Origin: Pycnopodia helianthoides
Lineage: Eukaryota; Echinodermata; Asteroidea; Forcipulatida; Asteriidae
Direction of reading: 5' to 3'
Length of the DNA stretch: 64,000 bases
Assembly (NCBI GenBank): GCA_032158295.1
Contig: CM063257.1
Span: forward strand, 744,001-808,000
The notes under the pieces are model-generated. The model worked only from the letters and a program-made list of their open reading frames with translations, did not search any database and had not been told where the DNA came from. The position numbers and the translations under genes are program-made. Positions 1,281 to 63,100 of this stretch are shown here, piece by piece; positions within the stretch are counted from its first letter, which is position 1; each line of letters starts with the position of its first letter.

Positions 1281-3357
1281 TTATTTATTTTATTTATTTA
1301 TTTATTTCTAGGAAAACAGTACATACAAAGAATAAACAATATAAATATGACTACACAGAGAACAAGCCTAAAGGCGATCCAGACGATAAAAATCAACAAA
1401 GGCACAAAAACGTCATAAAAATTGTGAAAATAGCACATCGTATCATATCAAATATAAATAAATATTAAATCTATAGAAAATTCATTGAAATTCCAAAAAA
1501 GTGCCTGGCAGCAAATTATGTATAAAAATTGGATCAACCAGAAAATCCCCACATCCTCCCTCCATTCAAACAGGTAGGATGCCAAACATTTTTCCTTCAT
1601 TTCGTCCTTTTACCTTTTTTCAATTTGTCCTACAAAGCCAAGAATAAAACAATTATTTGAATATCGCACAAAACTAGTTAAACCAGGAACCTCAAATGGA
1701 CCATAAAAAGAGGAAGTAGGCGATTGACAGCCAAACTAGTAAGGAAGAACATGTTTGTGGATTACTGACTTATACTCATGGGAGTCAATAACTTTTTCTC
1801 TAATGGGTACGGGTATTAAAGCTACTCCACACATAAGGGAAATTGATAAAAACGGAGTGTTTAAAAGCATTGTTTTTGCGAATGAAATTTGAAATCTATA
1901 ATCATCCAAATGCTGGGTGTTGATAACATATTGTTATCCATACTCCATGAAATCAAATTGTTAAGATCTTCTTGGAGAGCGAGGGAATCCCGAAGGCTGT
2001 TAATAATACGGTAAATGATTGTATCATCGGCTTTTTGAGCAACTGAGGAGGAAATAGTATCGGGCAAAACATTCACAAATATATTAAAAAGGAGAGGAGC
2101 TAAAATTGAACCTTGACGGGAAACCCCAGAGGAAACCTCACACCAATCTGAAACTGAACCTTGAAAAATAACACGTTGTTTTTGAAAAGAATGAAACCAG
2201 TTATGCAGAGATCCACAAATACCTAGTTATGTAATTTGCTGATGAGCCTATTGTGGGGCACCTTGTCAAAAGCACCAGCCCAGTCCAAAAATATAGCATC
2301 AACCCTAGGAGGCTAACACTTGTCCAGGGCAGCTGACCAGTCATGAAATTAATCTAGAGACTTGGGTAGTACATGAACGACAGGTAAAAAGCCATGTTGG
2401 GCATCAGACAAAAGTTTAAATGTGAATAAATGATCAGAAAGTGGATTAGCAACTATACGTTCTAAAACCTTACCAACAGGAGAGCAGATGGAAATAGGAC
2501 GATAATTACAAATATCAGAATTATTCCCAGGTTTGGGAATGGGGACCCTGTTGGCCGCTTTCCACGCTAGTGGAACCTCCCCTAATTGAAGAGAGAGGCT
2601 GAAGAGCCGAGCTAGGGGGGAACAGATATGACAGGGGCAGTGATTTTCAGCGTATAGGAATTGATGCCATCAGGGCCAGCAGATTTGGAGTGATTGAGAG
2701 AATGAAGTACTTTGTGAACTTCAGAGGGGGAGGTGAAGATTCCAGTGAGGGGCGAGTAGCCAACGTGATCCCCACAGCCTTCAGGAAGATGTCTATCAAA
2801 ATCAGTGGGTGTATCAGGAGTACTGAAATGAGATTGAAAAAGATTGTTAAATTGATTACAGATCACCTGAGGAATTGAAACATCTGCATTATCAATGCGT
2901 AAACTGTGAGCTACATGAGAGGACCGCTTGCTATTGACAAAAGACCAAAACTTTTTAGGGTTGAGGTTATCATTAGAAGCCAGTTTTGACAAATGAGAAA
3001 AATAAGATTTTTTTACCAAGTACTTGAGCGAATTACGACATTGCTTATATTTTGTCCACTTTGGTAGATTTCCAGGATTTTTAAGAGCAGACTTATACAA
3101 TCTTTTTTTTTTACGACTCAGCCGGACAATTTCATAAGAGATCCAAGGTGAGTGTTTTTGCCTTTAAGTGTGATGGTGGGAACATTATCTCTAAAAGCAG
3201 CTAATTTGACCCAAAAACAAAACCAAAGTTCGACTTGGATGGATTTGGGGTAATTCTTTCTGATAATTACCTTCAAGGTGTAGTCATTTGGTGTCAGAAC
3301 GAAGTCTTTTCCATTGAGGGTGACAACAATGTTTTGCACACTACAAAAGAAAAACAA
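1281..3357 (-). mobile_element. Truncated non-LTR retrotransposon (reverse transcriptase ORF2 remnant)
   Basis: Read on the minus strand, this region encodes a decayed reverse transcriptase of the CR1/jockey type. From 5' to 3' it shows the linker after the endonuclease (HPWISYE-like, near 3120-3150), a long open stretch at 2612-3100, an NYRPIS motif near 2488-2505, AFDKVPHNRL near 2245-2275, RQGS near 2106-2118, and the catalytic ADDT box near 2015-2035. The aromatic residue normally before ADD is replaced by lysine. Stops and frameshifts separate these blocks, so no functional enzyme is made. A (TTTA)n run at 1281-1308 is a plausible 3' microsatellite tail, which would set the 3' end. The 5' endonuclease half is missing. 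The clade is uncertain; the identification as a retrotransposon is not. Confidence 0.88.
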
Positions 3358-4109: not shown

Positions 4110-4255
4110 TAGGAGTACTCGGAGGCCATGGCCTCCGTTGCCCTGCTCTTGGCCTTGGTGCCCCTTCAAAAGTTGCCAATATAGACACTAAGATTTTCAA
4201 ATGGAAGTGCCCTTTGCTTTTGCAAAAGGATTTTGCAATGTGCCAAGTTTGTGGG
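4110..4255 (+). repeat. Copy of repeat family A (diverged)
   Basis: The core GGCCTTGGTGCCCCTTC followed by TAGACACTAAGATTTTC is shared with at least eight other places in the window (17447, 34607, 40597, 43078, 53935-54360 and others). Only the internal core is preserved here; the CAGGCCTGGAATT ends are lost. Confidence 0.6.
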
Positions 4256-7825: not shown

Positions 7826-8320
7826 ATAGTTTTAATTTTGAAAATTAACGAGTTTTTTCCTGACCTTAAAATTAAGACGATCGCGCAGTAACCGAAACCT
7901 GCTATGGCCCTATAGCCAAATGTCTATGTGTGCCGAATGCCATGTTTGTATCATCGAAGGCACGATACTCAACCTAATATTTCGGCTATCTGCCCCACTA
8001 GAAACCGCGCTCTTCTGCGGACAACACCAGAACTTTCGTCACAACACTCCACAAATTAAACGAACAAATCTTACGGATTATATGTAATTTAAATGCGTAC
8101 AAAATTATAACAATTTTAAATTGTTGAAAGATGTCCAAAATCTTTCTAAGTGAGCAGATTCAAACTGGGCCTATTTTAAATATCTTTCTGTGGTTTACAG
8201 CTAATTTTAAAGTAGCAATGTTTTTCAAATATATATATTTTTTTCAATAATTATCAATTCCTCCCCACTAGATTGGTTTACTCCCCGAAAGTGCCTTTCT
8301 TGCACAGGCTGTATGGTTAT

Positions 8321-9655
8321 TCACAAGCTGCCATGATGACAGACATAAGTTACGTTGAGATACTTTACAACACCTGGGCAGGGGTCCGAACCATACCAAT
8401 CATTATTCGTGACAAATGCACATTGTCTTTTCCCCTTGCACTCGATCTTCACTTTCTCAAGTGACATGATTTCATCTCTTCCGTCACAAGGGCCTGCGTT
8501 GAAGAAGCAACGATGTTTATCGTCAGCATAAAAACCGTATAGGGCCCATTTAACATCGATGGTCTCATCATCTCCACAGTTGATAGCGAAGTTGTCACCC
8601 TCACATTCAAGCTTTTGCACTGTGTTATGAAACAAAACGAACACAGGTTTTAAAGGTAAACAAAGACTAACCTCGATGTTGCTTATCCGTAAAACCCAAA
8701 CAGTCAAAAAGGGGGGGGGGGGCAGTATTGTTGATCCCACCCTCGTGCCCCTGTCTTTTGCAACCTCTCCCCCATTTTCTTCGATACTAAATGAGAACGG
8801 AGAAAATGCACAAAGGATGGTTCGCAAAAAAAAACCTCCAACATTATGTCTTTGTCCCGCTTCCCCCCAACCCCCAACCCCAACGAAAATAAATGCGAGA
8901 CGGAAGCACGCGCGTGAGAAGAAAAAGGTGAACTGCTTGTGTTTTTGTATTGCTCTTGTTCATTTCTTTTGTTCTTCACAAGTTTAAAAAAAAAATTCAC
9001 TTTCGATGAAATACTTGCGCTACCATGGCTTGGTTTCCGGTGGTGAAAAAAGGGCGCAGCCCGGCTCCTTAATCCACCTCTCATCGTTTGCACACTTCTT
9101 AAAGGCATTTTAAAAGTCTGCGTTCTATTAATAGATAGCTCAGTTGGTGGAGCGCCGGCACGTTAATCCGGAGGTCTTTGGTTCAAATCCCGCTCTAGTC
9201 AATTTTTTTCTTTGTTCAACCCAAAACCATAATAATAACAGTTGACATAGGCATACGAAAGTAAAGTAAGTCTGCACATACACTGCATGTTATTCTAAGA
9301 CGAGTCCATCACATCGTTCTCATTTTTACAATTTAAAAAAATTATTTACGGGATTAATCCTATGCCCCCCCCCCCCAGTCGAAACAAATGTTATCTCCCT
9401 CACCCAATTATTATTTTCTTTGAAAAAATAGTTTCACTTACTAGTGACAGTCGTTTGTGTATTCTTGTCCTTAGGCTTGCGGCAAGTTGCTCGGAAAGCT
9501 GACATTGTTTTCTGTCTGAACAGACGTCCATCGTCGCCAGCATTGACTGTCATCATCACGCCGCAGGATTCACCGTTTACAGTGACTTGCAAGAAACCGA
9601 CTGTCAAAGTAAGTAGAATGAGTGCGCGTAGGGTGTACATTGTTTCGCCAGACAT
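8321..9655 (-). CDS. SUEL-type (rhamnose/galactose-binding) lectin, gene 1, two exons
   Basis: Exon 1 is 9655 to 9442 and exon 2 is 8619 to 8321 on the minus strand. The donor is GTAAGTG, the acceptor is ACACAG, and the splice gives 513 nt encoding 170 aa. The start at 9655 precedes a hydrophobic signal peptide (around residues 6-27, ending near VNG), so the protein should be secreted. Exon 1 continues with about 40 residues bearing two cysteines. Exon 2 is a complete SUEL/Gal_Lectin domain with eight cysteines, an ALYGF motif in the position of the family's ANYGR motif, and DPC...KYLNVTYVC at the C-terminus. Family members bind L-rhamnose or galactose and act in egg or coelomic-fluid recognition; the ligand here is unknown. 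Upstream in-frame ATGs exist, but only this one starts at a clean signal peptide. Confidence 0.9.
9131..9242 (+). repeat. tRNA-derived SINE in the intron of lectin gene 1
   Basis: The head reads as a tRNA: box A TAGCTCAGTTGGTGGAGCG, anticodon region ACGTTAATC (GTT, tRNA-Asn-like), box B GGTTCAAATCC. It is followed by the family tail TTCTTTGTTCAACCCAAAAC and a short (TAA) run. The equivalent position in the gene 2 intron (near 19250) lacks it, so it inserted after the lectin duplication. Related copies lie at 23932, 33246 (minus), 51450 (minus) and 55125. Confidence 0.75.
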
Positions 9656-9854
9656 GCCCACACTGTTCTCATTTTTCTCATGTAAAGACCAGTGGTTTAT
9701 GATAACCTGGATTGCACGACCGTCGTATTTGAAGTCCATGCACGCTCGGAGCCCTTTCATGCATACGGAGTCCGTCCACACACCGTTCACGCATACGCAG
9801 TACACTGATTCCACGGATGGAGTCCTTCAGAGCGACAGCTCTGACGCAACTATG

Positions 9855-9965
9855 TGTCTTGATTGGCTATTCGTAAATATCCGGGACAGTTTATTCATTC
9901 TGATTGGTCGAGAGGACATCACATGGCTATATTGTTGAAACGTGTGATATAAACACAGTCAGCAA
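9855..9965. repeat. Repeat family C (CTGATTGGTCGAGAGGACATC motif)
   Basis: GGGACAGTTTATTCATTCTG, ATTGGTCGAGAGGACATCAC and CGTGTGATATAAACAC recur, in either orientation, near 33850-33950, 43390-43480, 52730-52810, 55250-55930 and 60540-60620. It lies about 200 bp upstream of the lectin 1 start codon. It may overlap the promoter, but no regulatory role is shown. Confidence 0.6.
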
Positions 9966-12222: not shown

Positions 12223-12524
12223 TCACATGCTGCCATAATGACAGACATACGTTACGTTGAGATACTTCCCTGTACCTAGACAGGGGTCCGGTCCATACCA
12301 AGCATTATTCGGGACAAATGCGCATTGTCTTTTCCCCTGGCACTCGATCTTCACTTTCTCAAGTGACATGGTTTCATTTCTTCCGTCACAAGGGCCATCT
12401 TTGTTGATGAAGCAACGATGTTTATTGTCAGCATCAAAACCGTATAGGGCCCACTTTACATCGATGGTCTCACCGTCTCCACAGTTGATAGCGAAGTTGT
12501 GATTCTCACATTCAAGCTTTTGAA
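12223..12524 (-). CDS. SUEL-type lectin, gene 2, exon 2 (lectin domain)
   Basis: This is the second exon of the gene whose first exon is at 19482-19692. The acceptor on the minus strand is ATACAG, directly before the lectin domain. All eight cysteines, ALYGF and DPC...KYLNVTYVC are preserved. Compared with gene 1, about 18 of 98 residues differ in this exon and there is one extra codon. The reading frame is open to the stop at 12223. The intron separating it from exon 1 is about 6.96 kb because a transposon has landed in it. Confidence 0.88.
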
Positions 12525-15500
12525 CTGTGTATGAAAAAGAACGAACACAAGTTTTGAAGGTAAAAATAGGCTCGATGTTGCTTACCGTAAAACCCAAACG
12601 GTCACAAGGGGGGGGGGGCTCGGTATCGCTGCCCCTCTCTCTTGCTCCTCTTTCTCTCCTTCAAATAAAATTGAAGGATATGCACAAGGGATGGTTGGCA
12701 ATAATAAATTAAAAAAAAACACCCAAATTATGTCTTTGTCCCGCTTCCCCCCCCCTCCCACCCCAATGAAAATAAATGAGAGCGGGAAGCACGCGCGTGA
12801 GAAGAAAAAAGTGAAGTGCTTGTGTTTTTCTATTGCTCTTGTTCCTTATTTTTCACAATTTTTTTTAAAATGTCACTTTCATTGAAATACTCGCGCTACT
12901 ATGGCTTGGTTTCCGGTGGGGAAAAAAGGCGCAAAACCCGGCTCCTTAATTCATTTAAAGATCTACTTCAACGGTACTAAGATAATTTAAACTTTGGCGA
13001 AATCCAATCAATTTGTGTTTCATGATTACGTATATATTAATGAAAATACTTAGCGGTAGTTGCGTAATTAAAAAAAAAGGTCATTTAGGCCAGCGTTCAG
13101 CAGCTCCTCATACCGAGTTTTTGGAAACGGCATGTCACGTGATAAAAATATACCATAGACTCTGATGACGTACATGAATGGAGACGGCTTGTTTACCCCC
13201 CGCGCAGCGAAGTGTGTTTATTGTACGCGTCTATAGCTATTCACACAGTAAACGAGGACAAAATGTCAGACATTAGCGGATCGTGGGAGGAACACAGTGT
13301 GGACGAAGAAGAATTAGGAAATACAGATGATAGTATTGATAGTGAGGATAGATCTGACGGTGGAGGGAGCTCTTCCGAAGACGAAGAGGGCGTTGATGAA
13401 GCTGGGGAGTGCTTGACGTGACGAGGAAGTGCGAGGTGCCAAACCATACAGGTTTGAGCCACTGGCCGCCGATGATCGTGAACGTGCGAATCCTGATGCA
13501 GGAGGTCGACTAAACAATACTGAATGGTGAGTCCCACAGGTTTTTTGAAGAACAAACAATGCTATGTTTACTGTTTTTTATCGTCATAAAGTACTTATTT
13601 ATCTATGCGGCATATGAGGCCGCTATAATGGATAGAAATAGCAGCAGAAAGTTGATTTTTTTTTCTCACGAAATGGTTGCTGTTGTCCAATATGGTTCAC
13701 GTTTTCATGATACATTGAATGGTGTCACTCAAAAATTGTTCCCATTGGGTTAGTGCAGGTATCCTTATCGGAAAACCGGGTTCCATGGAGAAGGAAAATA
13801 GATGAATGTTGTTTTATTTGTTTCTGTAATTCCTCGTTTATCCATTAATTTTTTCACAATACAATCATCAAATCTCAGTGTGTCGGAGATAACATTTATT
13901 TTCAGTACCGAACTGATCCTGACAAGCCGTATTTTCTGTCAGTGTCACTGTTCTACCGCATTTATTTATTTTATTTTTTTAGCAAATGATTGAGGTAGGT
14001 CCTAGCCTAATTGGATTATTTTTTATGTCAAGCTCATTTGCTAATTATTTCTCATAGTTTTCTTTTAGGCTAGTATGATATGTCATGTTTATTCTTTAAA
14101 ACAGAACTACAATTACAAACCACTTTTCAAATAAAAAAAATAAAATAAAAAAAAATTCCCAGAGACACAAAGTAAGAACAACGGCCATTGATAAACAATG
14201 CGAAACATTGCATGATTTTTTACTTAGATGTATAAATGAGACACGCATCGTTTCAATCCCCACTCATTTTGTATTACCCCCGTTCACGTAAAATTAGTTA
14301 ATGGTCATGAACATAGTCCATCCTATGTCAGTACAGCAACACTTTCATCCGTTAATTTTCTGTTATTTAAATTTTTCTTTCAGGTGCTCATGCGGACACT
14401 GTGTGGTCCAACCAATGGCAGTGAACTGCATCTGCTGTAAGGAAGTGCAGAAGACAAGAGCCCAAATGGCAGCATTGAACATTAATGTAGAGGATGAAAA
14501 CCAAAGCCTTGCTGTGCATGATTGGTTTGAAGCAGTCTGTCTGCACCCGGCTGTACTTCAAACCGCGTATTTACAGTACCGGTGAATACTATGGCAGAGA
14601 TGCAGTTGAAGGGACTCTAGACCAGTAAGTGTCTTTTTTTAATTGAACTGTAAAATTAATGTAAGGAGCAAACCCTCCCCCCAAAAAAATTATTACGCCT
14701 CTTACCTGACCCTGAGTATAATTGACTGTTGGATTAGATTTATTCAACTCAGAAAAACGAATAACCATAAAACCTGTACAAGATTTTTTCTAAACACTTT
14801 GATCTCTGTCACAATTGTTGAGTATGTTACAGCTTATGACTTCTTTAAAGAACCCAAAAGTGTGTGTGTGTGAGTTTGTAGTGCAATCAAACCGAGGACT
14901 TACAACAAAAGGGACAATAGGTCCATGTTTGTTATCACAAAGGAAAACAATGGGGTCCACGTTTGTCAGGACAAAGAGTTGAACAAAGGAGGGTCCACGA
15001 TTGGAGCTCATGACACACTTGAGTGTGTGTGTGTGTGTGTGAGCTTACACATGCCAACTTACGGAGCAATGCTACCCCATAAGGTTTTCTTTGTTCTGGT
15101 GGTGACCCAATTAGGATTTCTTCAGAAAAAGGAGAACAACAATGAAAGTACCCCTGTAACAGCCATATGTAAGGGTATGTGTGTGTGGGGGGGGGGGGGG
15201 TTCTCCTACAAGTTTTTCGACTGGACAAACCAGAAGAGTATATTTCCACCCTTACTCGTACGTGATTTCTTCAAAATGGGAAAACTGTGTTTTTAAACAA
15301 ATATTGATATCAAATGTTTACCTAATTTGATTTTCTTCAACTACTTTGTTTGCAGAAGAAATCGCCATGTTGTTTACAGGCGAGTTGTCAGATGGTGTAC
15401 GGGCTACCTCGGAAGGTTCAACAGAGTGCCACTTCCTTCATGTATCATGGACGCCATCCGAAGGACATATCCCAACCCCAATGGACAATATAAAGGGTTT

Positions 15501-18500
15501 ACCCGCCACTTGACTATTAGTAACTTAAAAACCCTAAAATTTATTGCCAATCATATAATAAGAATTCCTCTTCTCACTCGAATTTAGTGTGGTATTTTTA
15601 ACCCCTATAGTTGATAAAATGTTTGTAAATGAGACTCAAAAAATAGATGTACAAATTATTTGTCAAACATAAAGCTCATGCTGTTGTGCCTCTCAATGGA
15701 AAATAGTGAAATGCATTCAACTTACATGTACATATTACAAACATGGAAGTTATACAGCAAAGAGGCTTCAAAAGGGGAACTTTTTTGAGAACCACAATCT
15801 TTGATAAAAATCTGTTAATATTTGGCTCACTGGGATGGGATGTGTGTCATTACAAGAACAATGTCTATAATTAGGTGAGGTTTGCGCTGACACCATAGGT
15901 AAAATCTCTTTTGAGTAGTGGTGGTTCTGAAAAGAAACAGTGGTTTCACAACTTGATTTTTTGATCAGTATGCCCTGATCCTCTTCAGGAAGTTGTCAAA
16001 CCACCACTACTCACAACGAGATTTTATACATAGCATCACTGCAAACCTGATCCCACCATGCAAAGTTTCAAATCATACTATGATCAAAACATGTTCTGCT
16101 AATCTAGTAGTGGTACATGGTTTTCAGGAAGGTTTTCAGAATTGAGGATACAAACATGGTGGGATTGGTGGCCTCCATTTACTCTAAATTTTCAGTGTGT
16201 TACAATCATTTTTAGATGATCCATGAGTAAATGACAATAAATACTTTTAATAATATACACATATCAGTCTTTAGTCTTTATGAGTATTATTTTATTTCAA
16301 GAAAAATAGAATAAAACAACAATTGTTTTTGCAAAGTCAACTACCCCTCTTCAAGTGAAGTAAATAAATAGAAAGCAGCTTAATTAATAAATTAAAGGGA
16401 CACGTTGCCATTAAAAGAAAATGTAACTATGAGTTCCTTACCCTTCTTGCATATACTACATGGTAAATGACCACCTTATGTACAAAAAGCAATATTTTTG
16501 GAGTTAAGAGTACAGTGTACATGTAATACTTAATGTCAAGAAAAGTTGTATCACCAAAGTTGACCTCTCTGTCTAGTTTCAATTTTCATTGAGTAATTAA
16601 ATAGAAAACAGCTAAATTAAAAGGGAATGTTGCAAAACTAATTCCATGCGATCCTTACTCTTCTTGCCTACAGACATTCTAAAAGACCTTATAAAAATTT
16701 TCAGCTCAATGTAGACTTTCAAGAAAATGTAAACAAACATTTCAAATTACAGTCAAAGCTTAGAAAGACAGGTTGTCTGGCAAATTGTCAAAAAGAAGTG
16801 TAATTGTTTTGTGTTTGCCCTGGATTGAAAACACATTACACATGAAATATGCAAACCCCAATACATGTACTCCAACTCCTCTTTTTCTCCCCCCCCCCCA
16901 AAAAAAACTACTTTAGTTCACCATGCAATATGCACAAACTGGGGCTGCTCATTAATCTTACGTAGCAAACAAGTTTGTGGTTGATCCCCCTTCTAACAAA
17001 TAATAACAATAACAAATAAGTACGGTATACATGTGTACATGTACTCAATAAAACCCTACATTTAAATTACCAGATGTGGTTGCGGTCAAGTAAAAGCTAC
17101 ATGGGCATTAAAACAACTCTTCTCATAAGATAATAAAGGGTGTACAAAAAATATGTACAATACATGTATAATCAATAAAGAAAAAAATCCACAATGGCTT
17201 GATGAATAAATCATATTTTACCATCAGAAATAATCCTCTGCATTAAACAATAAGGTGTTTAAACTATGTCAACAGTATCTCTTTAATACATGTAATAGGA
17301 GGACAAAATAAACCTTTCTTTCATTTTAATAATTCTGCTTGAAACAAAATTGCAAACAGACATGAATCATGCATCTCAAACCTAGGGGTTTATAAATTTG
17401 TTAAAAATCTTGAGGGAAATTGTTAACTTTTAAGATATTCACAAGTCAGGCCTGGAATTACACGGAGGCCATGGCCTTCGTTGCCCTTGTGTTGGCCTTG
17501 GTGCCCCTTCAAAAGTCTCCCATAGACTTTAAGATTTTCCAATGGAAGTACCCTTTACAAAATGAAAATGGCCTTGCCCTCTCCAAGATGAAATTCCAGG
17601 CCTGACAAGTGTATGATTATGCAAAGTAAAGTTAATTATTATTCCGATACTGCACATTTTGATGTGTAATGAAATAAAAATAACCCTCAGCTCGGGGTCC
17701 AGGCATTTTGAAGCTGACCCCCACCCCCCGCGGTTGAATATTTCTCCCCTAAACATAATTAAGGTTGTTTCTGCAACAAGCCAGTAAACCGTTTCATTAC
17801 CTCCTCTGATGTGATTGAACTTTCCATCACATTAGATGGGAGAAGTTGTTCACCAGTGGGCTCCTGGTCACCATACTTAGCATATATTCAGCAAAAGCTT
17901 CTTGCAAAACCTGAACAAAAGATCAAAACAAACATTGTATTTAACCTCTAAGTCAAAATGTCATAATTTGGGCATTGTATTCACACACATGTATGGCTTT
18001 GCCCTTTGTAGGCCCAAGTCATTTTTTACCATGGTCCTTCCCCTGGTACTCCTCCCCCAGGGATACAATGATGTTGAAAGCAAACTAAACTGGAAAAGCA
18101 ATGTAAGGTCAATAATGAAGTCTGTAGGTTGTACTTGAAGTTGAAGGGGAGTCTTGTACACATGTATGTGCACTGGGATGACAAGGTCAAGGAGGTGAAG
18201 TAGAATTGGTAACTAGTTACAAACTTTCCTAAACTTCGAACTCGAATCATGCTCACAATCACATCGAGTGAAAAGGAAAATTGTTGATGGTTTTGGTAGC
18301 CCTACTATTGAGTTTGAAATCTCTTGCGAGAAGTGCATGTTTTGAAATGAAAAGAAACGATGGTAAAATATCAACTACATACTCATAGAACTTAGTTTTA
18401 GAACTTAAAAGTTGCTTACCCAGCTCTTCTCTCTTTTCTTAAATGACATGCCAGACGAGTGTTGGCTGAATCGCTTAGTTTCATTTGGCTGTGCCTGTTT

Positions 18501-19692
18501 TACTCTCTGTTTGAAAAGATGATAGCACTGCAGATGGGGCTTTCATGGTTGGGATTGAACCTGGCTTAAGCCTGTTATAGCTTTTTAATCCAAAACTGCT
18601 CTTTAGTTGCGATGTTGCAACCCGACAGTCGTCCGTAAAATGGGCACTGCAAATCATGGTCCATTTTGTCACCGTGAAACCCTGTGTTGGTCACCGAACG
18701 CACCCATTCCCTTCTCTGGACAGGATCTCTTGGGAATCGAAACAAAAACTCACATCTGGGTTCCTATCTGCGTTCCAAGTACATCCACCAACAGAACATG
18801 AATTCGGCATGGTCAATTCTCACGTCTTAACTTGGTGAATGTATCCGAATAATGAGATCATCACACATAGTTACCGTGTAAACACACGACACATCGCTAC
18901 TTCCTGGTTTCCCCTTTCTTATAAGTACGTCATCATTCGCTGGTTCACCCACGTATCTTATAGTTGGTTCGTGGTGCGCGTAAATACACGTGCTTCAGTA
19001 TGGGACATGCATGGTGCCTATGGAGGGAGCCATGGAAGCGCGCGAGTTTTTAAAAACCCTAAGATCGGATTATTTTTTCCGGTTAAAATTACGAAAAAAA
19101 TATATGTTTAAAACAATCAAACCTACAAGGTCAGAATACTTAATAACATTATGTTTAAGATTCAGCAATTTGTTTTATTTCGCAGATATTGCTGAAGTAG
19201 ATCTTTAATCCACCTCTCATCGTTTGCACAATATTCAAAGACATTTTTACAGTCTGCGTTCAATTCACACTACAGTGGTCATAGGCCTACGAAAGTAAAT
19301 TAAGTGTACACACTGCACATTATTTCTAAGACGAGTCCATCACATCGTTCTAATTTTTACAATTTCTCAAAATTATCCGGATTGAACTATAGGATTAATC
19401 GTATGCCCCCCCCCCGAGTCATAACAAATGTTATCTCCCTCACCCAATTATTATTCGCTTTGAAAAATTAATTTCACTTACTAGTAACAGTCGTTTGTGT
19501 ATTCTTGTACTTAGGCTTGCGGCAAGTTGCTCGGAAAGCTGACATTGTTTTCTGTCTGAACAGACGTCCATCGTCGCCAGCATTGACCGTCATCATCACG
19601 CCGCAAGATTCACCGTTTACAACTTGCAAGAAACCGACTGTCAAAGTAAGTAGAATGAGTGCGCGTAGGGTGTACATTGTTTCGCCAGACAT
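12223..19692 (-). CDS. SUEL-type lectin, gene 2, whole-gene span (170 aa)
   Basis: Joining exon 1 (19692 to 19482) to exon 2 (12524 to 12223) gives 513 nt and 170 aa, the same length as gene 1, with the same intron phase. The product is a secreted single-domain SUEL lectin. The intron matches that of gene 1 on both sides and differs mainly by the TTAA-flanked element at 12959-19204 and by lacking the SINE. Whether the enlarged intron, which contains an opposing gene, still splices efficiently is unknown; both exons and splice sites are intact. Confidence 0.82.
12946..12970 (+). other. Left end of the TTAA-flanked transposon: TTAA plus 12-bp terminal inverted repeat
   Basis: TTAA at 12955-12958 abuts AGATCTACTTCA (12959-12970), the exact reverse complement of the right end at 19193-19204. 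A second TTAA at 12946-12949 marks where homology with the uninterrupted lectin 1 intron (CCGGCTCCTTAATCC) breaks. Nine bases (12950-12958) lie between the break and the inverted repeat. Confidence 0.75.
13263..15587 (+). pseudogene. Stand-alone P2X7-type cytoplasmic ballast-domain gene, three exons, frameshifted
   Basis: Exon 1 is 13263-13526, exon 2 is 14384-14624 and exon 3 is 15356-15587. Donors GTGAGT and GTAAGT and both acceptors fit, and the splice phases agree. Exon 1 begins with an acidic, serine-rich tail, and the junction to exon 2 creates NTEWCSCGHC. Exon 2 adds NCICCKEV and a LQTAYLQYR segment; exon 3 adds YRRVVRWCTGYLG, PLPSCIMDAIRR and NGQYKGF. In human P2X7 the same order appears as a WCQCG-type cysteine cluster, a CC pair, LPSCCRWRIR and GQYSGF near the C-terminus. 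There are no transmembrane segments, so this is the zinc-binding cytoplasmic domain alone. Two one-base frameshifts break it: near 13415-13419 in exon 1 and near 14583 in exon 2. Its role in the element is unknown. Confidence 0.8.
15898..16028. repeat. Inverted repeat inside the transposon
   Basis: Arms of about 30 bp pair around a central region containing TTGATCAGTATGCCCTGATC. The layout (AGTGGTGGTTCTGAAAAG, then a core, then CTTCAGGA) is a diverged version of the repeat at 20030-20105 and 61025-61125. Confidence 0.55.
17447..17604 (+). mobile_element. Family A element, full length, with 6-bp flanking direct repeat
   Basis: It starts CAGGCCTGGAATTACACGG and ends GAAATTCCAGGCCTG, so the ends are inverted repeats. 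ACAAGT flanks it on both sides (17441-17446 and 17605-17610), giving a candidate target-site duplication. It is non-coding and nested in the TTAA-flanked transposon, hence younger. Confidence 0.7.
17801..18810 (-). pseudogene. THAP zinc-finger protein gene of the transposon, two exons seen, frameshifted
   Basis: Exon 1 runs from the ATG at 18810 to about 18420 (donor GTAAGC); exon 2 is 17910 to 17801 (acceptor TTTTGTTCAG, donor GTAATG). The N-terminus MPNSCSVGGC gives the first two zinc ligands. FRFPRDPVQRREWVRSV follows, then CSAHF gives the third cysteine and the histidine, and LKPGSIPTM is the usual C-terminal THAP signature (C2CH). Two frame changes split this domain, near 18745 and 18675. 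A stop near 18481 and a further shift in exon 2 follow. THAP domains bind DNA and occur at the N-terminus of P-element and Kolobok transposases. Exon 2 encodes an acidic linker (EYMLS, then DQEPTGEQLLPS). No catalytic domain follows. Confidence 0.75.
19193..19208 (+). other. Right end of the TTAA-flanked transposon
   Basis: TGAAGTAGATCT (19193-19204) is the inverted partner of 12959-12970, and TTAA (19205-19208) follows. Lectin-intron homology with gene 1 resumes immediately: TTAATCCACCTCTCATCGTT here matches 9071 onward. Confidence 0.8.
19482..19692 (-). CDS. SUEL-type lectin, gene 2, exon 1 (signal peptide)
   Basis: The ATG at 19692 begins a signal peptide followed by about 40 residues with two cysteines, ending at a GTAAGTG donor (19481 downward). 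Apart from one missing codon and one residue change it is identical to gene 1 exon 1. This exon is far more conserved between the two genes than the lectin exon. Confidence 0.88.
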
Positions 19693-20029
19693 GCCCACAC
19701 TGTTCCCCTTTTCTCCTGTAAAGACCAGTGGTTTATGATAACCAAGATCAGACCGTCGTATTTCAAGTCCACGAACACGGAGCCCGTCCACACACCGTTC
19801 ACCTTTATCGCAGTTCACTAATTCCACGAATGGAGTCCGTCAGAGCGATGTAGCTCTACCTACCTGACGCAACAGTTCATTTCCAGGCTTTCCGATTAAT
19901 AATAATAGCTAATGTAAAATGTGTCTGGACTGGCCATTAAAATATGCATAATGCAGTGGGCAAACCAACAACCACAGAGAAACTATAAATATAAATATGA
20001 ATAGTAAACTTGCGGATACAACCATTTTT

Positions 20030-26811: not shown

Positions 26812-27097
26812 GGGCCCAATTTCATAGCGCTGCTTAACGGTAAGCACAACATTTGTGCTTACTGTAGCAGAAAAATTTGCTTGAGTATAAGCGTATTTCA
26901 CAGGTTAGCAAGAAAATTGGGTGGCCAGCTTGTGGGTTCACCATGGATTTGCATTGTTGTATCATTCATTTTCATACATAAAGCACTGGGAGGTTAGCAT
27001 GCCTTTTCGTTCGCTTTTGGTTAGCAGCGCTATGAAATGGAAACTCGCACAGTAAGCACAAAATCGGCCGTTAAGCAGCTCTATGAAAAATTTGCCC
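26812..27097. mobile_element. Family B element, long form
   Basis: Ends GGGCCCAATTTCATAGCGCT and TTAAGCAGCTCTATGAAAAA are inverted. An inner pair (TAGCGCTGCTTAACGGTAAG and GTTAGCAGCGCTATGAAATG) shows one element nested in or fused to another. Confidence 0.62.
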
Positions 27098-27149
27098 CAT
27101 GTCTCATATAATATTCAGTGTAGTGTTTGTCAACAAATGATTTTGAACT

Positions 27150-27605
27150 GTAATTCTGTGTGACGAATAAATTGTGGATTAGATAGAACACAAAGTGGCC
27201 GTGATTGTCTCTAATTTATTCAGGGTGCGTCTCAAAGTCAGAATGGTGGGAACGTTTTAATTGGATCGGATAAACATTCCAGTGGGTGCACATGGGAGTG
27301 TTCTCGGTGGATTTTCAGTGGTGCTGTTGGGGGGGGGGGGATGGTGGTAATTCTAAACAAGTAGGTGTAATTCTGTGTGACAAATAAATTGTGGATTAGT
27401 TATAGAACACAAAGTGGCTGTGATTGTCTCTACTTTATTCAGGGTGCGTCTCAAAGTCGAATGGTGGGAATGTTTTAATTGGATCGGATAAACATTCCAG
27501 TGGGTGCACATGGGACTGTTCTCGGTGGATTTTTCTCGGAAGAGGATTTTCAGTGGTGCTGTTGGGGGGTGGGGGTGAGGTGAGTGGTGGTAATTCTAAA
27601 CAAGC
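27150..27605 (+). repeat. Two-copy tandem duplication, unit about 216-240 bp
   Basis: Unit 1 (27150-27365) and unit 2 (27366-27605) share GTAATTCTGTGTGAC, AAATTGTGGATTAG, TTCAGGGTGCGTCTCAAAGT and GGATCGGATAAACATTCCAG. They differ by point changes and a 20-bp insertion in unit 2, so unlike 10375-10606 they look like a genuine diverged duplication. Confidence 0.75.
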
Positions 27606-27647
27606 AGGAAGAGTGGGTAAAGTACAGGAACAGATCATGAATGTGGC

Positions 27648-27850
27648 GTGTCGTGGCCCAGCGGTCTAGCTCACAGGACCCAAGCTCTAATGTTGTCAGA
27701 ATCCAGGTCATGACACTTGTGCCCTTGAGCAAGGCCCTCAACCATAATTGCCTTGTGAAAAAGTTGGGAAGGTAGTGCATTCTGCTCTACCAGCCAGGCT
27801 TCTAGTGGATGATACCCATGCCTACATCCTTACGGACTGTGAAGGGGGTA
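27648..27850 (+). repeat. SINE with the 'CTTGAGCAAGGC' core
   Basis: A tRNA-like box A (GGCCCAGCGGTCTAG) is followed by CTTGTGCCCTTGAGCAAGGC, CTCAACCATAATTGCCTTG and a 3' region ending CTACATCCTTAC. A second copy at 48310-48555 shares TGTCCTTGAGCAAGACACTT. Confidence 0.62.
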
Positions 27851-28017
27851 ACCATGTTTCACCCCAGGAGTAGGTGGCAAGCGCCCCTGGTGACAGTTGA
27901 TTTGGGTCGACAGCCCAAATCAGTAAAGTATAGCCCTCACTTTGAAGGGGGAAAGGTAACTCGCATATTGAGCAAGGCGTCTGCTTTGTAGTCCCACACC
28001 CAACTGACTTATAGGCA

Positions 28018-28322
28018 GGATGATAATTGTCAAAGACTAATATCCTCACTTGGTGTATCCCAACATATGCATAAAATAACAAACCTCAATTGGCTCATTG
28101 GTCATCGAAGTTGCAAGAAAACATTGAAAGAAAAAACACTTTTGTTGCACAGAATTGTGTGCTTTCAGATGCCTGAAACCTTTTTCAGATTCAAATACTT
28201 CAGAGGGATTCGTTTCTCACAATGTTTTATACTATCAGCAGCTCTCAGATGCTCCTTACCAAGTAAGTTTTTATGGTAATGCTTTTCTTGAGTAATTATC
28301 AAAAGCATCCACTGCCTTTAAC
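28018..28322. repeat. Family D element
   Basis: It includes CAACATATGCATAAAATAAC, GGTCATCGAAGTTGCAAGAA, a CTTTCAGATGCCTGAAACC palindromic middle, TTTATACTATCAGCAGCTCT and AAGTAAGTTTTTATGGTAAT, and ends near CATCCACTGCCTTTAA. I recall similar repeats from sea-star sequence, which supports the proposed taxon. It is non-coding. Confidence 0.55.
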
Positions 28323-30424
28323 CAGCCCGGACAATCACGATTCAAAAACCACATACAATATTAAGCAATCATTCTTTTTTTATTTTACAAGTGTTTAATT
28401 TAGCTTATCATTTTGTTCTATTAATATTAATTATTGAATCACATTTTTTAAATATCCTCTTATACCGAGTAACTCAAAGAAAAATTGTGAAAACCACTCC
28501 AATATAAAGGTATATTAAAAATGCATACAGGATTGTGTGTGTTGAGGTGGTTAACTCTAAACCAAGTTATCTCAGTTCATAAATACATTAACTTGAGTTA
28601 TAAATAACCCGGTTTACAGTGTTAAGTTTGCTATGACCTGCGTACTGGGATGGTTTAAACCAAGTTTAAACCAAGTTTAAACCTCTACCCCCCTTTGCTG
28701 CTTTGTTGAGTTATAGCCAGTTATTCAGACCATGGAGGTAGAATTCTACCTCATGTTCAGACACAGCCTCAAATGTACCAGTCAAGCCTTACAACCTTGT
28801 CCTATGAGACAGGCAAATTTTACAGGCAACTCAAACGGACACGTTGCCTTCGGATTGGGCGCTTTTGGCTATAAAATGCATTCGTTATGAAATGAATATG
28901 GTTGGAAAGATAATTTAAAAGTAAAATGCATGTATAATGATTCACATAAACGTCCCTTGAAATTGTTGTTTTTTGTGTAATTGCATGACAGATCAGTCCG
29001 CTGTTTTTTTGTGGAGCCAAGCTCTTGACTCCATAAAATGACGACCGTTTGCTCCGCTAGTTGTATTTCTAGGGGCAAATATTATGTTTTTTTTAAATCA
29101 CTACTCACTAATTACAACACACTGTGGGTGTTTAACATGTAGTGCATGAACAACTCTTAAAAAAAGGACAAGGAGTAACTCCAAACAGCAAAATTTTAGG
29201 AGATTTGACGGTAATGTGCCCCTTTAATTACAGGTAACCAACCACACTGCACAAGTATGAGAGAACTGATGGAGTGGGTTTCTATCTTGGAGATTGCCTG
29301 GAACTGGTTCCTTGTTAAGTGCTTCCTGGACACAGCTTAGTCACTTCAAAACAGCTTAACACAAGAGATCAGTTGTATAATTCATTTACTTCCTCTTATA
29401 CAGAAATGTGTACGGCAGATTTCAGGAAAAAAAATCTGTATTACACAATATTTTGGCCGACGAGTTAAAAATTATGAGTGGTTGGACGAAACGGTAACCC
29501 TTGAACCAGCAGCTTGGTTCTCAATTATCAGTAAAGTCTACATCATGTGAAACCGAGTCACAGCATCTGATAAAATTCATTGTATCACCAGTAATTGTTC
29601 TCTGAAAATTGTATTTTCTTTACTTGAGGTTGAAAAGAAACCAGGGCCCAATTGAATGAATCTGCTTACTGTATTTGTGTAAATTGGTGCTTATACTAGA
29701 AGACAAGTCCAAAGGATAGCAGGAAGTTTGCTTGTGTGCGTGGCACACTTCACGCTAAGCGTCCTTCATGCACAGAGCAAGCTCAGAGATTAGGCACTAA
29801 GAAGAGAAAGATTCCTGTAACAGCAGAATTCCTTGATTAGAGACGCTCATTTTGGTAACGTAGTCGCCGATACAACAGAATTACTGGAGAAGAAATATCT
29901 GTATCAAACAAACGTCTCGATCAAAATGAACCAGATTTGTAGACCTACCCAGTTTCTCCGAGCCAGTCCATGTTGCGCCCTCTACCAGCAACAAATACAA
30001 AAACTAGCGTAACCAATCAGCAACAAGCAGAGTAATAGCATCCCTTCCACCAAAATGCAAGAATTGTTCAGTTACTGTCCAATTCTAAAAAGTTGTTTTT
30101 TCAATTATTTAATCCCAGACGATCGACAAAGGACAAAAATGTGTAATTCATCTCGCAATGAAACAAAGAAAGTACACAAAAAATCTCTGATAAATTGGGC
30201 GAAAACCAGGCTTGAGAGATGCAAATTTATACCAATCAAATCTGCATAAAATTCAATAACAATATTAAGGTAAGTTATGTTAAATACACGTTTGGGTTAA
30301 GAATAGTCATTCAAAATGCAATATTACAAAATACTGTGAACAGAAATGTACATTCTCAAAATAAAAACAGCAGACTCGAATCAAGTCAAAGCAGCCAGTT
30401 AAACATTTTGTGATTTAAGGTAGA

Positions 30425-30668
30425 ATCAAAGATTACAGAGTGCCGAAAGACGCAAGATGGGGAACTCAGGCTGAAATGCGAAATGTGCACTGGACGCCAT
30501 TTCAGCAAGCAACTCTGTTGATGCAACAATAGCTCAGTGCAGACAACGACCATTGCTATCAATGATATAACAAAACGTTTGCTTGCTGAAATGGCGCCCA
30601 TGAGTATTTCACGTTTCAACAAGAGATAGAGCCACAGTTCCCCATCTTGCGCCATTGGTACTCTTCAA
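30425..30668. mobile_element. Fold-back element, arms about 90 bp
   Basis: GCAAGATGGGGAACT and CGCCATTTCAGCAAGC on the left match GCTTGCTGAAATGGCG and AGTTCCCCATCTTGC on the right. The outer parts (AATCAAAGATTACAGAGTGC versus GGTACTCTTCAATCTTTGGG) also pair. The open frames across it are by-products of the palindrome. Confidence 0.68.
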
Positions 30669-30827
30669 TCTTTGGGTAGAATGTACTATTTGTGTGACTT
30701 TTTTTTTTTTTTTTTCGTTCTAAAAAATTGCTTCTGTCTTCATCTAATTTGAATATTGCTGCTCTGGGTTTACCAATTACTGAAACAACGCCTGTACACA
30801 TCCAGGCCTAATATCAGGAGAACTGGG

Positions 30828-31020
30828 TTCCAATTTCATAGAGCTGCTTAAGCAGAAAATTATTGCTTTAAAAATTTCTGCTAAGCAACAATAGGCAGGA
30901 TACCAGTCACAGATGCTACGTGTAAAATGGTATTTGAGCTGGTAACCTTTTTTTCTGGTAAGCAGAGTTTTGTTTTGCTTAGCTAGTTTTTGTGTTTAAG
31001 CAGCTCTATGGAAGTGGGCC
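30828..31020. mobile_element. Family B element
   Basis: Left end CCAATTTCATAGAGCTGCTT, right end AAGCAGCTCTATGGAAGTGG. The interior matches 20826-21021 in order (GGATACCAGTCACA, GCTGGTAACC, TTTTGCTTAGCTAG). It runs directly into a partial copy of the 321-830 family (31010-31230). Confidence 0.68.
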
Positions 31021-34606: not shown

Positions 34607-34763
34607 CAGGCCTGGAATTACACGAGGCCATGGCCTCTGTTGCCCTAGTCTTGGCCTTGGTGCCCCTTCAAAACTTTCCCATAGACCTTAAGATTTTCCA
34701 GTGAAAGTGCCCTTCACAAAATGAAAATGGCCTTGCCCTCTCCAAGATGAAATTCCAGGCCTG
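34607..34763 (+). mobile_element. Family A element, full length
   Basis: Starts CAGGCCTGGAATTACACGAG and ends GAAATTCCAGGCCTG. Flanking hexamers AGCTGG and AGGTGG differ by one base. It lies about 200 bp downstream of the ARF6 stop codon, possibly within the 3' UTR. Confidence 0.7.
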
Positions 34764-34957
34764 AGGTGGGATATAATAACAATCAAAACTGGGGATTTTG
34801 CTGTGGCAAAGTGAAGGCCCCCCCTCCCCTCTTTCAAGTTCACACCCTGGATAATTCATATCAACATTTAAATGCAAGTAAAATGATGAAAAAAATGTTA
34901 AGGGTCCGTACATACAGTATACACTACATACAGAAGTAGAAAATGGGCCAGCTTTTG

Positions 34958-40372: not shown

Positions 40373-40596
40373 AAGCTACACAACGGGCGTGTAAACATTC
40401 CGATATTCTGAGAGTATACAAAAGCTGGTGTACACGTCATCCGATTTCTGGCACAGAAAACAGAGGTGTGTAACACGTCTTCGGGCTATAACTGGTCAAA
40501 ACAAAATCATTGAATGAAAGTGACGAGTACGATTGCAGTCTTGAAAACTTCATGAAATAGATGGCGAGAAACACGGCCACCGTGTATTTATGACAT

Positions 40597-40743
40597 CAGG
40601 CCTGGAATTACACGGAGGCCATCCCTGGTGTTGGCCTTGGTGCCCCTTCAAAACATTCCCATAGACTGTAAGATTTTCCAATGGAAGTGCCCTTAACAAA
40701 ATGAAAATGGCCTTACCCTCTCCAAGATGAAATTCCAGGCCTG
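40597..40743 (+). mobile_element. Family A element
   Basis: Starts CAGGCCTGGAATTACACGGA and ends GAAATTCCAGGCCTG, with a small internal deletion near 40620. Flanking hexamers TGACAT/TGTCAT agree at four of six positions. Confidence 0.65.
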
Positions 40744-43077: not shown

Positions 43078-43230
43078 CAGACCTGGAATTACACGGAGGC
43101 CACGGAGGCCCTGGTCTTGGCCTCGGTGCCCCTTCAAAGGTTTCCCATAGACTTAAAGATCTTCCAATAGAAGTGCCCCTTTGCAAAAAGAAAATGGCCT
43201 TGCCCTCTCAAAGATGAAATTCCAGGCCTG
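43078..43230 (+). mobile_element. Family A element with 6-bp flanking repeat
   Basis: Starts CAGACCTGGAATTACACGGA and ends GAAATTCCAGGCCTG. CTTGTC flanks it directly on both sides (43072-43077 and 43231-43236). Confidence 0.72.
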
Positions 43231-53934: not shown

Positions 53935-54360
53935 TTTAGTGGTCTGAAGGTAGCCCAGACCTACCTTGGTGCCCTGTCAAAAGTTTCCCATTAAAGATTT
54001 TCCCATGAATGTGCCCCTTCAAAGTTCAAATTCCAGGCCTGTTGTGTGTGGGCCTGGAATTGCACAGAGGACATAGAGGCATTGGCCTCCGTTACCCCTT
54101 GTCTTGACCTTGGTGTTCTTCAAAGTTGTCCGTAGACTTCAAGATTTTCACTGAAGGTGAAAAATCAAATGGCCTTGCCCCCTCAAAGATGAAACTCCAG
54201 GCCTGTTGCATGTGAATCACAAAGAGGCCATGGAGACCATGACTACCCCTTGTCTAGGCATTGGTGCCCCTTCAAAGTTTTCCATGGACTTACTAAGATT
54301 TTCCATCAAAAGTGAAAATTCAAATGGCTTTGCCCTCTCAAATATGAAATTCCAGGTCTT
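53935..54360 (+). repeat. Three adjacent family A copies
   Basis: Copies run about 53935-54040 (5' truncated), 54049-54204 and 54205-54360. Each ends in a version of GAAATTCCAGGCCTG or GAAACTCCAGGCCTG. Their abutment suggests local tandem duplication of one insertion. Confidence 0.6.
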
Positions 54361-60100: not shown

Positions 60101-63100
60101 GGATCAGACAATGACCCATCATAGTAAGTTTTCATTTTCTTATTCGGTGGAAGTGCTTTATTGAACGGATAGAACTTACCTAAGTATGTGAGGCCCAGGC
60201 CCAGGGCCAAGTAGCGAGCGAAGGTATCTTTCAATTCCAAGGACGTCTTCTCCATCATAGTCTGGATGATGGTTGAGCTGACTTCACCGTTACATGAGCC
60301 GACTGCCATCATGCCTGCCGATAAGGCCGTAATGCCTACCACCTGAGTATAGTAGCGTTATTATTATTATTGTGTCTTGGTGTGTTATAGCCATTACAAA
60401 TAAGGGAATCAATTTGTGTTGAAGAGGTTTCAAAATAGTGGTTTAAACCCGCCCAGGCCTGATGATTTTACCACGCAAAACCTGATAGCGCCCTCTTTGA
60501 CAAAAAGTTGCCAGTCATGTTTAAACACTTCTGACTGTGTTTATATCACATGTTTAAACATGGCCATGTGATGTCCTCTCGACCAATCAGAATGGATAAA
60601 CTGTCCCAGGTATTTATGAATGCAATATAAATATTACACAATAGCCTCTACAAATAAATTTACAGGTTGTATTGTAAACTTGGGTGTGATTGTATAAGGG
60701 CTTGTTTAAAAAATCGCCACACACAAAAACAGAAAATATTTTCACCAAAAAAAATGAACAAATCAGATTTCTTGCGAGACGATTCCGTTACCTCCATGCT
60801 AGATTTGCTGTCACTCATCGCTGGGAGTATAAGACTCAGAACATCCTCACGATTTGAACCTGCGTACGCCAAACCCAACCTGAAACAAACGGTTTTCAAA
60901 ACGTCAACATTCAATACCAGTACGGGTGATTTACAATATAGAGCGCCCTCTACAGTTTGCCTAGGCGTACACTATAAAGGCCGCACTGTATTGTGAATTG
61001 CCTGTATTCATTCCGTTATAAATGACATTCGTTTCCTACTGAAGACGAGCAGAGTATACTGTTCGAAACATCGAGACCAAACCGACTCTTTTCAGAGCCA
61101 GCACTCCTCCCAAAAGAGATTTTACACATGGTTGTACTCACAAGTTTACTACTATTTATAGTTATAGTTACTTCTTACATTCGTTTCCGGTTAGTGCTGA
61201 CTTATCCACCAACAAATAATAATAATACAACATTTATAAAGGCCCCATAATCTCATAATAATAATAATATGAACATTTGTTCAAATGCACGATGATACAA
61301 AACACATTAAAAATAATGTAACATTCCAAAACAACATATCAATTATAAAGTACAAATCAATAAATCTAAAGCACTAAACTGACACTCATGGCATGACGGT
61401 ACAAAACACTAAAAATAATAGAACAACATTCCAAAACAACATATCAATTATACAATACAACATAATCAATCTAAGGCAATGAACAATTAAACTTAGTTAA
61501 TGAATAATCTTAACATTAACAATTAAACACAGATCAATAAAATGCAGACATACAATAAATATATAAATTCAGTGAATTAACAAAGAATATGACAATATAG
61601 AAAATTGAAATTGGTCATAATAAATGCAAGTACATAAAAAGAACAGTTTATGCAACCATTACTGCTTTGCAAATTCTCAAATTTGACAAATTGACACGGA
61701 CAGAGACGAGTCATATTAGTAATAATCAATATAAATAATGACCTGGTAGATTGGCTAGTGGCTTCTTCTAGTGAAGAAAATCGCTTTAAATTTTGCTAAT
61801 TTTTTATTCATATTTTATTATTTTGCTTTAAGTCATAAATGCAAACAGTATGATTTTCAAAGTTAAGTTTTATGTTAACTTAAAAAACTTGAGAATTGGG
61901 ATACAAATATACTTCTGAAAAACCAATGACCTATCATGCCTTTTACATAAAATACGTACCCGAATATAGCTCCGATACGCATAGTGCTGTTAGCATGAAG
62001 GACGTAGTCAGATAGGAGAGCGAGGGCAGGATCGCACTCATTACGCACTCCAGAATTGACAATCCCACAAGCCAAAAGGGCACCAGACTACGGATAAAAA
62101 AGAAATTTCAACACAGTGTTGATTAGAAACCAATCAAAGTACGCCAAACAATTGCTGTGGTGTCCGTTTGTGAAAGCTGCGGCCAGAGATGCTGTTGGTA
62201 CCCGCTGTCACCTCGCTAAACATGGATGGATTTAAAGTTCCTTATGAAAAATATTGTGACTGTTTTGTGCTGTTTTCTTAACAAGTAGACACTGTATTCA
62301 ACTTTCACAGATGACTTTAATTGTATGGTTCTTGATAATTTTGCCAATAAATCAACAATATGTTGACAAAAACCAATCTGTAACCCTACTTTTTAGCGGC
62401 CTTCAGGCCGTCGACTTTTATCAACCAAAAATCTTAGCATAATTTGTTTTACCTTGATATAGTCTTCCCCCGAATAGAGATATTTATCAATCTGGGTCAA
62501 TCCTCCGTCAACGTCCCACAGCAGTACCATCCCAAGAGAAGCAGCTGTGCTCATCATTCCATGCTCTTTGTTCTTATAAATCCACACGTTGCCGTCCTCT
62601 GTGATCAGCTTGTCCTTACCGAAGCCGGCGTTGACAAACCCGTTCACAAACGACGCGGCCAGATTCTGTCTGGCTGAGTCTACTTGGGAACCTGATGTGC
62701 CAAATGGTCCTGAAATTAAAAAATAACAACAGACGGTTCTTAGAATGTTATAAGAGAGCACTTATTCTGAAAGTAGACAACTTAGACAAACGATAAGGAA
62801 ATTCCAATTAACCCTTCAGTGATTGACCATGATCTCTTCTTTAATGAAACAAAATGCAACACCATCAGGACTATAACGTCGTTAGTGCAGTTTGTGTGAA
62901 TTTCATAAAATTAGTTTTGCATATTTTGGAGCTTCTGGTAAATAAAGTTTATTGACCGAGAGTGGTCTCCAAAACTTTCAGCCAATGGTAGAGATGTTAT
63001 AATACTTACGTGTGTTTTCCAAGTGACTTTTGTAAATGTCTTCTGGAACTTTGGGGTCCATAATATCAAGCTGGCAAAGACAAAACAAACATAAATGTTA

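Follow-up and report, generated by a model that had tools for sequence, protein, structure and literature searches.

Why a P2X7-type ballast domain should lie beside a THAP domain inside what looks like a transposon is the question raised by one locus of the sea star Pycnopodia helianthoides. The window, that is the whole stretch of DNA analysed, comprises 64,000 nucleotides of contig CM063257.1 (assembly GCA_032158295.1, positions 744,001 to 808,000, forward strand), and coordinates without a contig name refer to it. The TTAA-flanked element at 12959-19204 (6,246 bp) carries a relic gene for KolX, the ballast-domain protein, on the plus strand and pointing right, and a THAP relic on the minus strand and pointing left. 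With a probability that we put at about 0.9, it belongs to a recently amplified, non-autonomous DNA transposon family that derives from a Kolobok of the Kol0 lineage, carries relic KolX and THAP genes and is moved in trans.

The ends of the element were borne out by the sequence as the original prediction had given them. The left terminal inverted repeat, AGATCTACTTCA (12959-12970, plus strand), starts with AG, and the right one, its reverse complement (19193-19204, minus strand), ends with CT; the two match perfectly over 12 bp, and a TTAA target-site duplication stands on either side (12955-12958 and 19205-19208). A count of perfect inverted ends of at least 12 bp, flanked by TTAA and 100 bp to 15 kb apart, gave two pairs in the window and none in 200 order-2 Markov simulations. 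The element separates two parts of the second copy of a SUEL-lectin gene, which is tandemly duplicated (8321-9938, and 12223-12660 plus 19474-19839). When the flanks of the element were joined and compared with the other duplicate (approximately 8,200-9,840), identity was 80-86%, and the paralogous site at 9063 reads GGCTCC-TTAA-TCCACC, with a single TTAA and no element.

For the recovery of further copies, the window's own assembly (479,350,823 bases) was searched with TTAAAGATCTACTTCA, which consists of the TTAA and the terminal repeat. The pattern occurred 368 times (186 forward and 182 reverse), with 0 and 0 for the reversed control. One hundred of these places were examined; 86 of them formed 43 convergent pairs and 14 were single. 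Forty pairs span 5.7-6.95 kb, 35 of them 6,200-6,330 bp, and three span 10.3-15.6 kb. The 40 pairs of 5.7-6.95 kb were retrieved, giving 41 copies together with that in the window. Where they align with the window copy, all 40 show 93.3-99.7% identity to it, and their left flanks are all distinct. The ends are exact in 41 of 41, as is the TTAA on both sides, which for the retrieved copies is a matter of the pattern chosen and for the window copy is an independent observation.

Parts of both genes lie between the same ends in each of the 40 retrieved copies, and 36 retain all three KolX exons and THAP, whereby "retained" denotes at least 80% of the bases of the window copy. Among the other four, exon 1 is interrupted by an insertion in L012, exon 2 is mostly or wholly missing from L024 and L031, and much of THAP is missing from L033; by eye, the sequences inserted in L011 and L012 were judged to be other repeats. 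Three subfamilies could be distinguished (n = 25, 13 and 2), with mean within-group divergence of 0.66, 1.04 and 0.51%, the window copy being included. L012, which is partly another insertion, was omitted here and from the variability and exon 1 counts (40 rows) and kept in the 41-row counts. This is a young, high-copy transposon family, and the prediction that the ballast domain is its cargo or an accessory protein is supported. That prediction was to be given up if the two genes were never found together elsewhere or the ends occurred only here; the genes are together in all 40 copies, and once more in a divergent pair on contig C17 that is described below.

The KolX gene of the window copy consists of three exons, and its best named matches came from the sea stars Patiria miniata and Asterias rubens. 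Two of these proteins, both labelled "P2X purinoceptor 7-like" (P0001 from P. miniata and P0002 from A. rubens), show 46% identity to the read-through KolX and have the same cysteine pattern and domain order, whereas the window family differs by a serine at one of the cysteine positions and by the TGA of exon 2. Exon 1 (13263-13526, plus strand) is a relic with a frame break near 13419, found in the same form in one other copy of 41. Exon 2 (14384-14624, plus strand) holds the first part of the ballast domain, matches P0001 and P0002, and is interrupted by a frame break with the TGA at 14583-14585. Exon 3 (15356-15587, plus strand) holds the second part, matches the Pfam family P2RX7_C at E 2.4e-8, and is 72% identical to P0001 and 64% to P0002. 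The read-through, with X at the two frame breaks, matched P2RX7_C at E 7.8e-13. Exon ends were placed by hand at GT...AG junctions, and the introns rest on homology and on splice sites rather than on transcript data. The exon 2 TGA is present in 39 of the 39 copies retaining that stretch, and in the same number a conserved zinc cysteine, which we take to sit at the position of C506 in P2X7, is replaced by serine, with six of the seven cysteines kept.

The THAP (C2CH) relic lies at 18481-18810 on the minus strand, with its start at 18810 and coding to about 18481, and its frame is broken in the window copy. One frame piece gave a Pfam E value of 3.2e-5, above the cut-off, and the version with X at the stops gave 6.5e-4 over profile positions 1-86, below it. 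In copy L030 the corresponding frame has no break and matches THAP at E 4.8e-13, likewise over positions 1-86; the frame is intact in 2 of the 41 aligned copies. The domain is probably the N-terminus of a former transposase. Of the two inward-facing, intron-containing genes first proposed, the orientation, the domains and the introns of KolX stand; THAP has only one recognisable exon, and neither gene is intact here.

A DDE domain, for which the original prediction proposed that intact copies be checked, was not recognisable in any of the 41 copies, and their longest stop-to-stop frame is 160 amino acids. In a six-frame Pfam search of the window copy at E 1, no DDE family was reported, the sensitivity for a Kol0 DDE being unverified; plus frames gave only P2RX7_C and minus frames only THAP, with no P2X channel domain. 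Among the long pairs, C2:11620222-11630568 was suspected to be autonomous, but the stretch read from it (L049, C2:11621500-11629500) proved to be the element partly duplicated in tandem, with outer ends 10.3 kb apart; the other two are located on C1 and C4. KolX and THAP queries were also run against the genome, and the best 150 were scored out of 289 (P0003), 485 (THAP), 793 (Patiria KolX) and 403 (THAP) candidates. The best P0003 match, tried as a partner, was a KolX relative in a decayed state, with about 88% identity to P0003 (L050, C9:8438200-8445200), beside a non-LTR retrotransposon. Scans of viral and prokaryote contigs for KolX gave no confirmed relative.

Kolobok elements are characterized by a TTAA target and 5'-RR/YY-3' ends, and those of the Kol0 group by KolX (PMC9587614); the Xenopus Kolobok has AG termini and combines THAP with DDE (PMC6004289). 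The window family has the TTAA duplication, RR/YY termini and a THAP domain, and the presence of KolX is indicated by the P2RX7_C match. It shares with Kol0 elements of the Kolobok-1_XT type, which pair DDD/E with KolX, the TTAA target, the RR/YY ends (here AG...CT) and a KolX with ballast homology, and its THAP domain is of the kind found in Kolobok transposases. It differs from them in having no recognisable DDD/E with the C/DxxH signature between its ends, in having genes that are mostly relics, and in being a high-copy element of about 6.25 kb. The Kolobok affinity of the original prediction is thereby retained, for a non-autonomous member. In KolobokP the termini carry long direct repeats (about 450 or 660 bp); the window element has none, the longest direct repeat listed for 12500-19800 being 36 nt. 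A parallel is the T2-MITE of Xenopus, a miniature inverted-repeat transposable element (MITE) that is likewise non-autonomous, with TTAA and RR ends, and is thought to be moved in trans by Kolobok transposases (PMC6004289); T2-MITE is short, whereas the window family measures about 6.25 kb and has gene relics.

A nested MITE-like repeat with ends AGGCCTGGAATT lies in the middle of the element (17447-17605, arms 17437-17462 and 17589-17614) and was found in 41 of 41 copies. Because independent insertions have the lesions and the MITE in common, these are older than the spread, and the family expanded for the most part without functional genes. The lack of a recognisable DDE, together with the relic state of both genes in nearly every copy, marks the element as non-autonomous; that it moved in trans as a non-autonomous Kolobok is most likely. 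The ancestor would have been a Kolobok with two convergent genes, KolX read from the left end and a THAP-headed transposase from the right, whose presumed catalytic DDE part was lost or decayed past recognition. A MITE would then have inserted into the middle, and KolX and THAP would have gained the breaks common to most copies. The resulting relic of about 6.25 kb, its ends intact, would then have been moved by cut and paste into TTAA sites, the transposase being provided in trans, presumably by a Kolobok, and would have spread to roughly 180 sites, half the number of exact ends (368).

Several observations weigh against this reconstruction. Among the best-scored KolX and THAP matches there was no autonomous partner that combines these ends with a DDE, and the THAP region, compared with protein databases in search of a THAP-DDE transposase, gave no relative; no Kol0 transposase was used as query, and a DDE that is split or diverged could therefore have escaped notice. 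The empty site is inexact, the joined flanks being nine bases longer than the paralogous site; the extra bases, TTAATTCAT at 12946-12954, stand left of the TTAA in the filled lectin copy and may be an old excision footprint at the same TTAA or a plain indel. Nor are the gene relics dead throughout the family. Two of the 41 copies, L042 and L043, read exon 2 through to its end, with the frame shifted upstream, and THAP is unbroken across the whole query at 9 of the best 150 matches (485 candidates) genome-wide, eight at 100% identity and one at 99%. Fewer than 10 ballast genes per species, and their ancient linkage with two markers, were reported by Rump et al. (PMC7016195), a pattern that a purely mobile history of the domain would not predict.

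The unbroken THAP matches also lend support to a rival reading, in which the family is still coding. KolX would be made via a splice donor inside exon 2 just ahead of the TGA, the subfamily with an unbroken THAP frame would supply a DNA-binding protein, and the two proteins would help or repress a transposase that has its gene at another locus. Frames are indeed open in most copies (29 of 41 for exon 1, 37 for exon 2 up to the TGA, and 30 plus 6 for exon 3), 28 of the 40 copies aligned without L012 have an open exon 1 that includes the PYR motif in frame, and a GT stands at the place needed, which by reading of the sequence would join exon 3 in phase. A better donor, GTAAGT, lies about 43 bases further on, however, and variable sites show no excess at the third codon position (by position, 6/7/6 for exon 2 and 7/16/9 for exon 3; 40 rows). 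The invariant serine at one of the seven zinc cysteines, and the shortened KolX exon 1 with CC changed to CF in the two THAP-intact copies read, also speak against coding, which we regard as quite unlikely.

It is very unlikely, too, that the element is an autonomous Kolobok whose DDE is present, split into short exons and unrecognised, given that the window copy and L030 conserve only the KolX exons and THAP with the C17 element and that neither the short frames nor the Pfam search gave any sign of it; there are nonetheless 2.9 kb between KolX and THAP and, by reading, a possible donor after the THAP exon, and no Kol0 DDE served as a reference in the search. A third possibility is a relative of piggyBac or of the P element instead of a Kolobok. 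P elements have THAP as well, but they make 8-bp target duplications, and the zinc cysteines of KolX are kept, six of seven in the window family and, by reading, all seven in C17. The AG...CT ends conform to 5'-RR/YY-3', a stated difference from piggyBac, which has other termini (PMC9587614). Such a relationship is highly improbable, and a non-autonomous Kolobok family moved in trans is preferred to all three.

Several KolX lineages besides the window family were seen among the best-scored matches. At C17:10832165 both ballast exons are open, and 2.4 kb downstream, on the opposite strand, the locus (L051) has a THAP relic with one stop that is 46% identical to the family THAP; Pfam did not report it in the minus frames, and it was identified by reading L051. 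The locus has no blastn match to the window element at E 1e-3. A six-frame comparison of the C17 element with the window copy and with L030 gave no matches at E <0.1 beyond THAP and the exons of KolX, together with mirrors of these on the opposite strands. No DDE is recognisable in its middle, and its ends were not found. Judged on these similarities, the tail-to-tail layout of KolX and THAP recurs in a second, divergent element. On C20, a KolX exon (13455445, minus strand) and a THAP match (13457216, plus strand) lie 1.6 kb apart (13455445-13457557) and are head-to-head, unlike the window layout. At the other non-family KolX loci, no THAP was nearby among the matches listed, the lists being compared by eye, and this scarcity counts against KolX/THAP as a general layout.

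Both the window family and the divergent C17 element have KolX and THAP with no recognisable DDE. One could suppose a recurrent two-gene layout kept by divergent Kolobok lineages of one genome after the catalytic part was lost, in which KolX and THAP may serve a trans-mobilised element in end recognition or in competition for the helper; we consider this unlikely. If true, KolX would be a selectable accessory, not baggage, in trans-mobilised elements. A tick protein has been described with a "TAHP" domain ahead of the ballast domain (PMC7016195); "TAHP" is taken here to be THAP, which fits the pairing.

The link between KolX and P2X7 is already in print, and the element is ordinary in kind. 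Kojima and Bao (2022) reported that KolX, which accompanies the transposase in Kol0 Kolobok as an accessory protein, adopts the ballast fold, proposed P2X7 as a fusion with KolX, and gave zebrafish Nanor as a domesticated KolX (PMC9587614). The suggestion in the original prediction that the P2X7 domain came from such an element is therefore not new, and the present data support the published proposal with multi-copy evidence that the ballast domain sits in a TTAA transposon. Stand-alone ballast proteins occur across animals (PMC7016195); the transposon terms searched for are absent from the main text of that paper, and no further paper on a transposon-ballast link was evident from titles and abstract openings in literature searches. 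KolX of the window shows homology to a P2X7 chain over residues 472-591 of the latter (E 6e-4) and falls in the same Pfam family, P2RX7_C. The vertebrate ballast is described as exon 13 (PMC7016195) of a receptor gene with a P2X channel domain, whereas in the element the domain is split by an intron and the channel part is absent. The KolX matches on C17 and C22 are interrupted at residue 166/167 of P0001, at or adjoining the exon 2/exon 3 junction of the window family. An intron at this place in the ballast domain, in the window family and in at least two other KolX loci, may bear on the origin of a P2X7 tail that is described as a single exon.

Other features of the window were noted in passing. 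The second TTAA-flanked pair lies at 27071-30851 and has 14-bp perfect inverted ends, GCAGCTCTATGAAA, which differ from those of the 12959-19204 element; for the 3.77 kb inside, a six-frame Pfam search gave no relevant domain. Pieces of the AGGCCTGGAATT-ended MITE-like family, 73-92% identical to the nested repeat, occur at 34607-34764, 40596-40743, 43078-43230, 4116-4215 and 54051-54359. A probable non-LTR retrotransposon remnant lies at 1861-3163 (minus strand), with a weak reverse transcriptase match, under the Pfam cut-off, at 1861-2226. An exon of the proteasome subunit PSMD2/Rpn1 lies at 62393-62761 on the minus strand.

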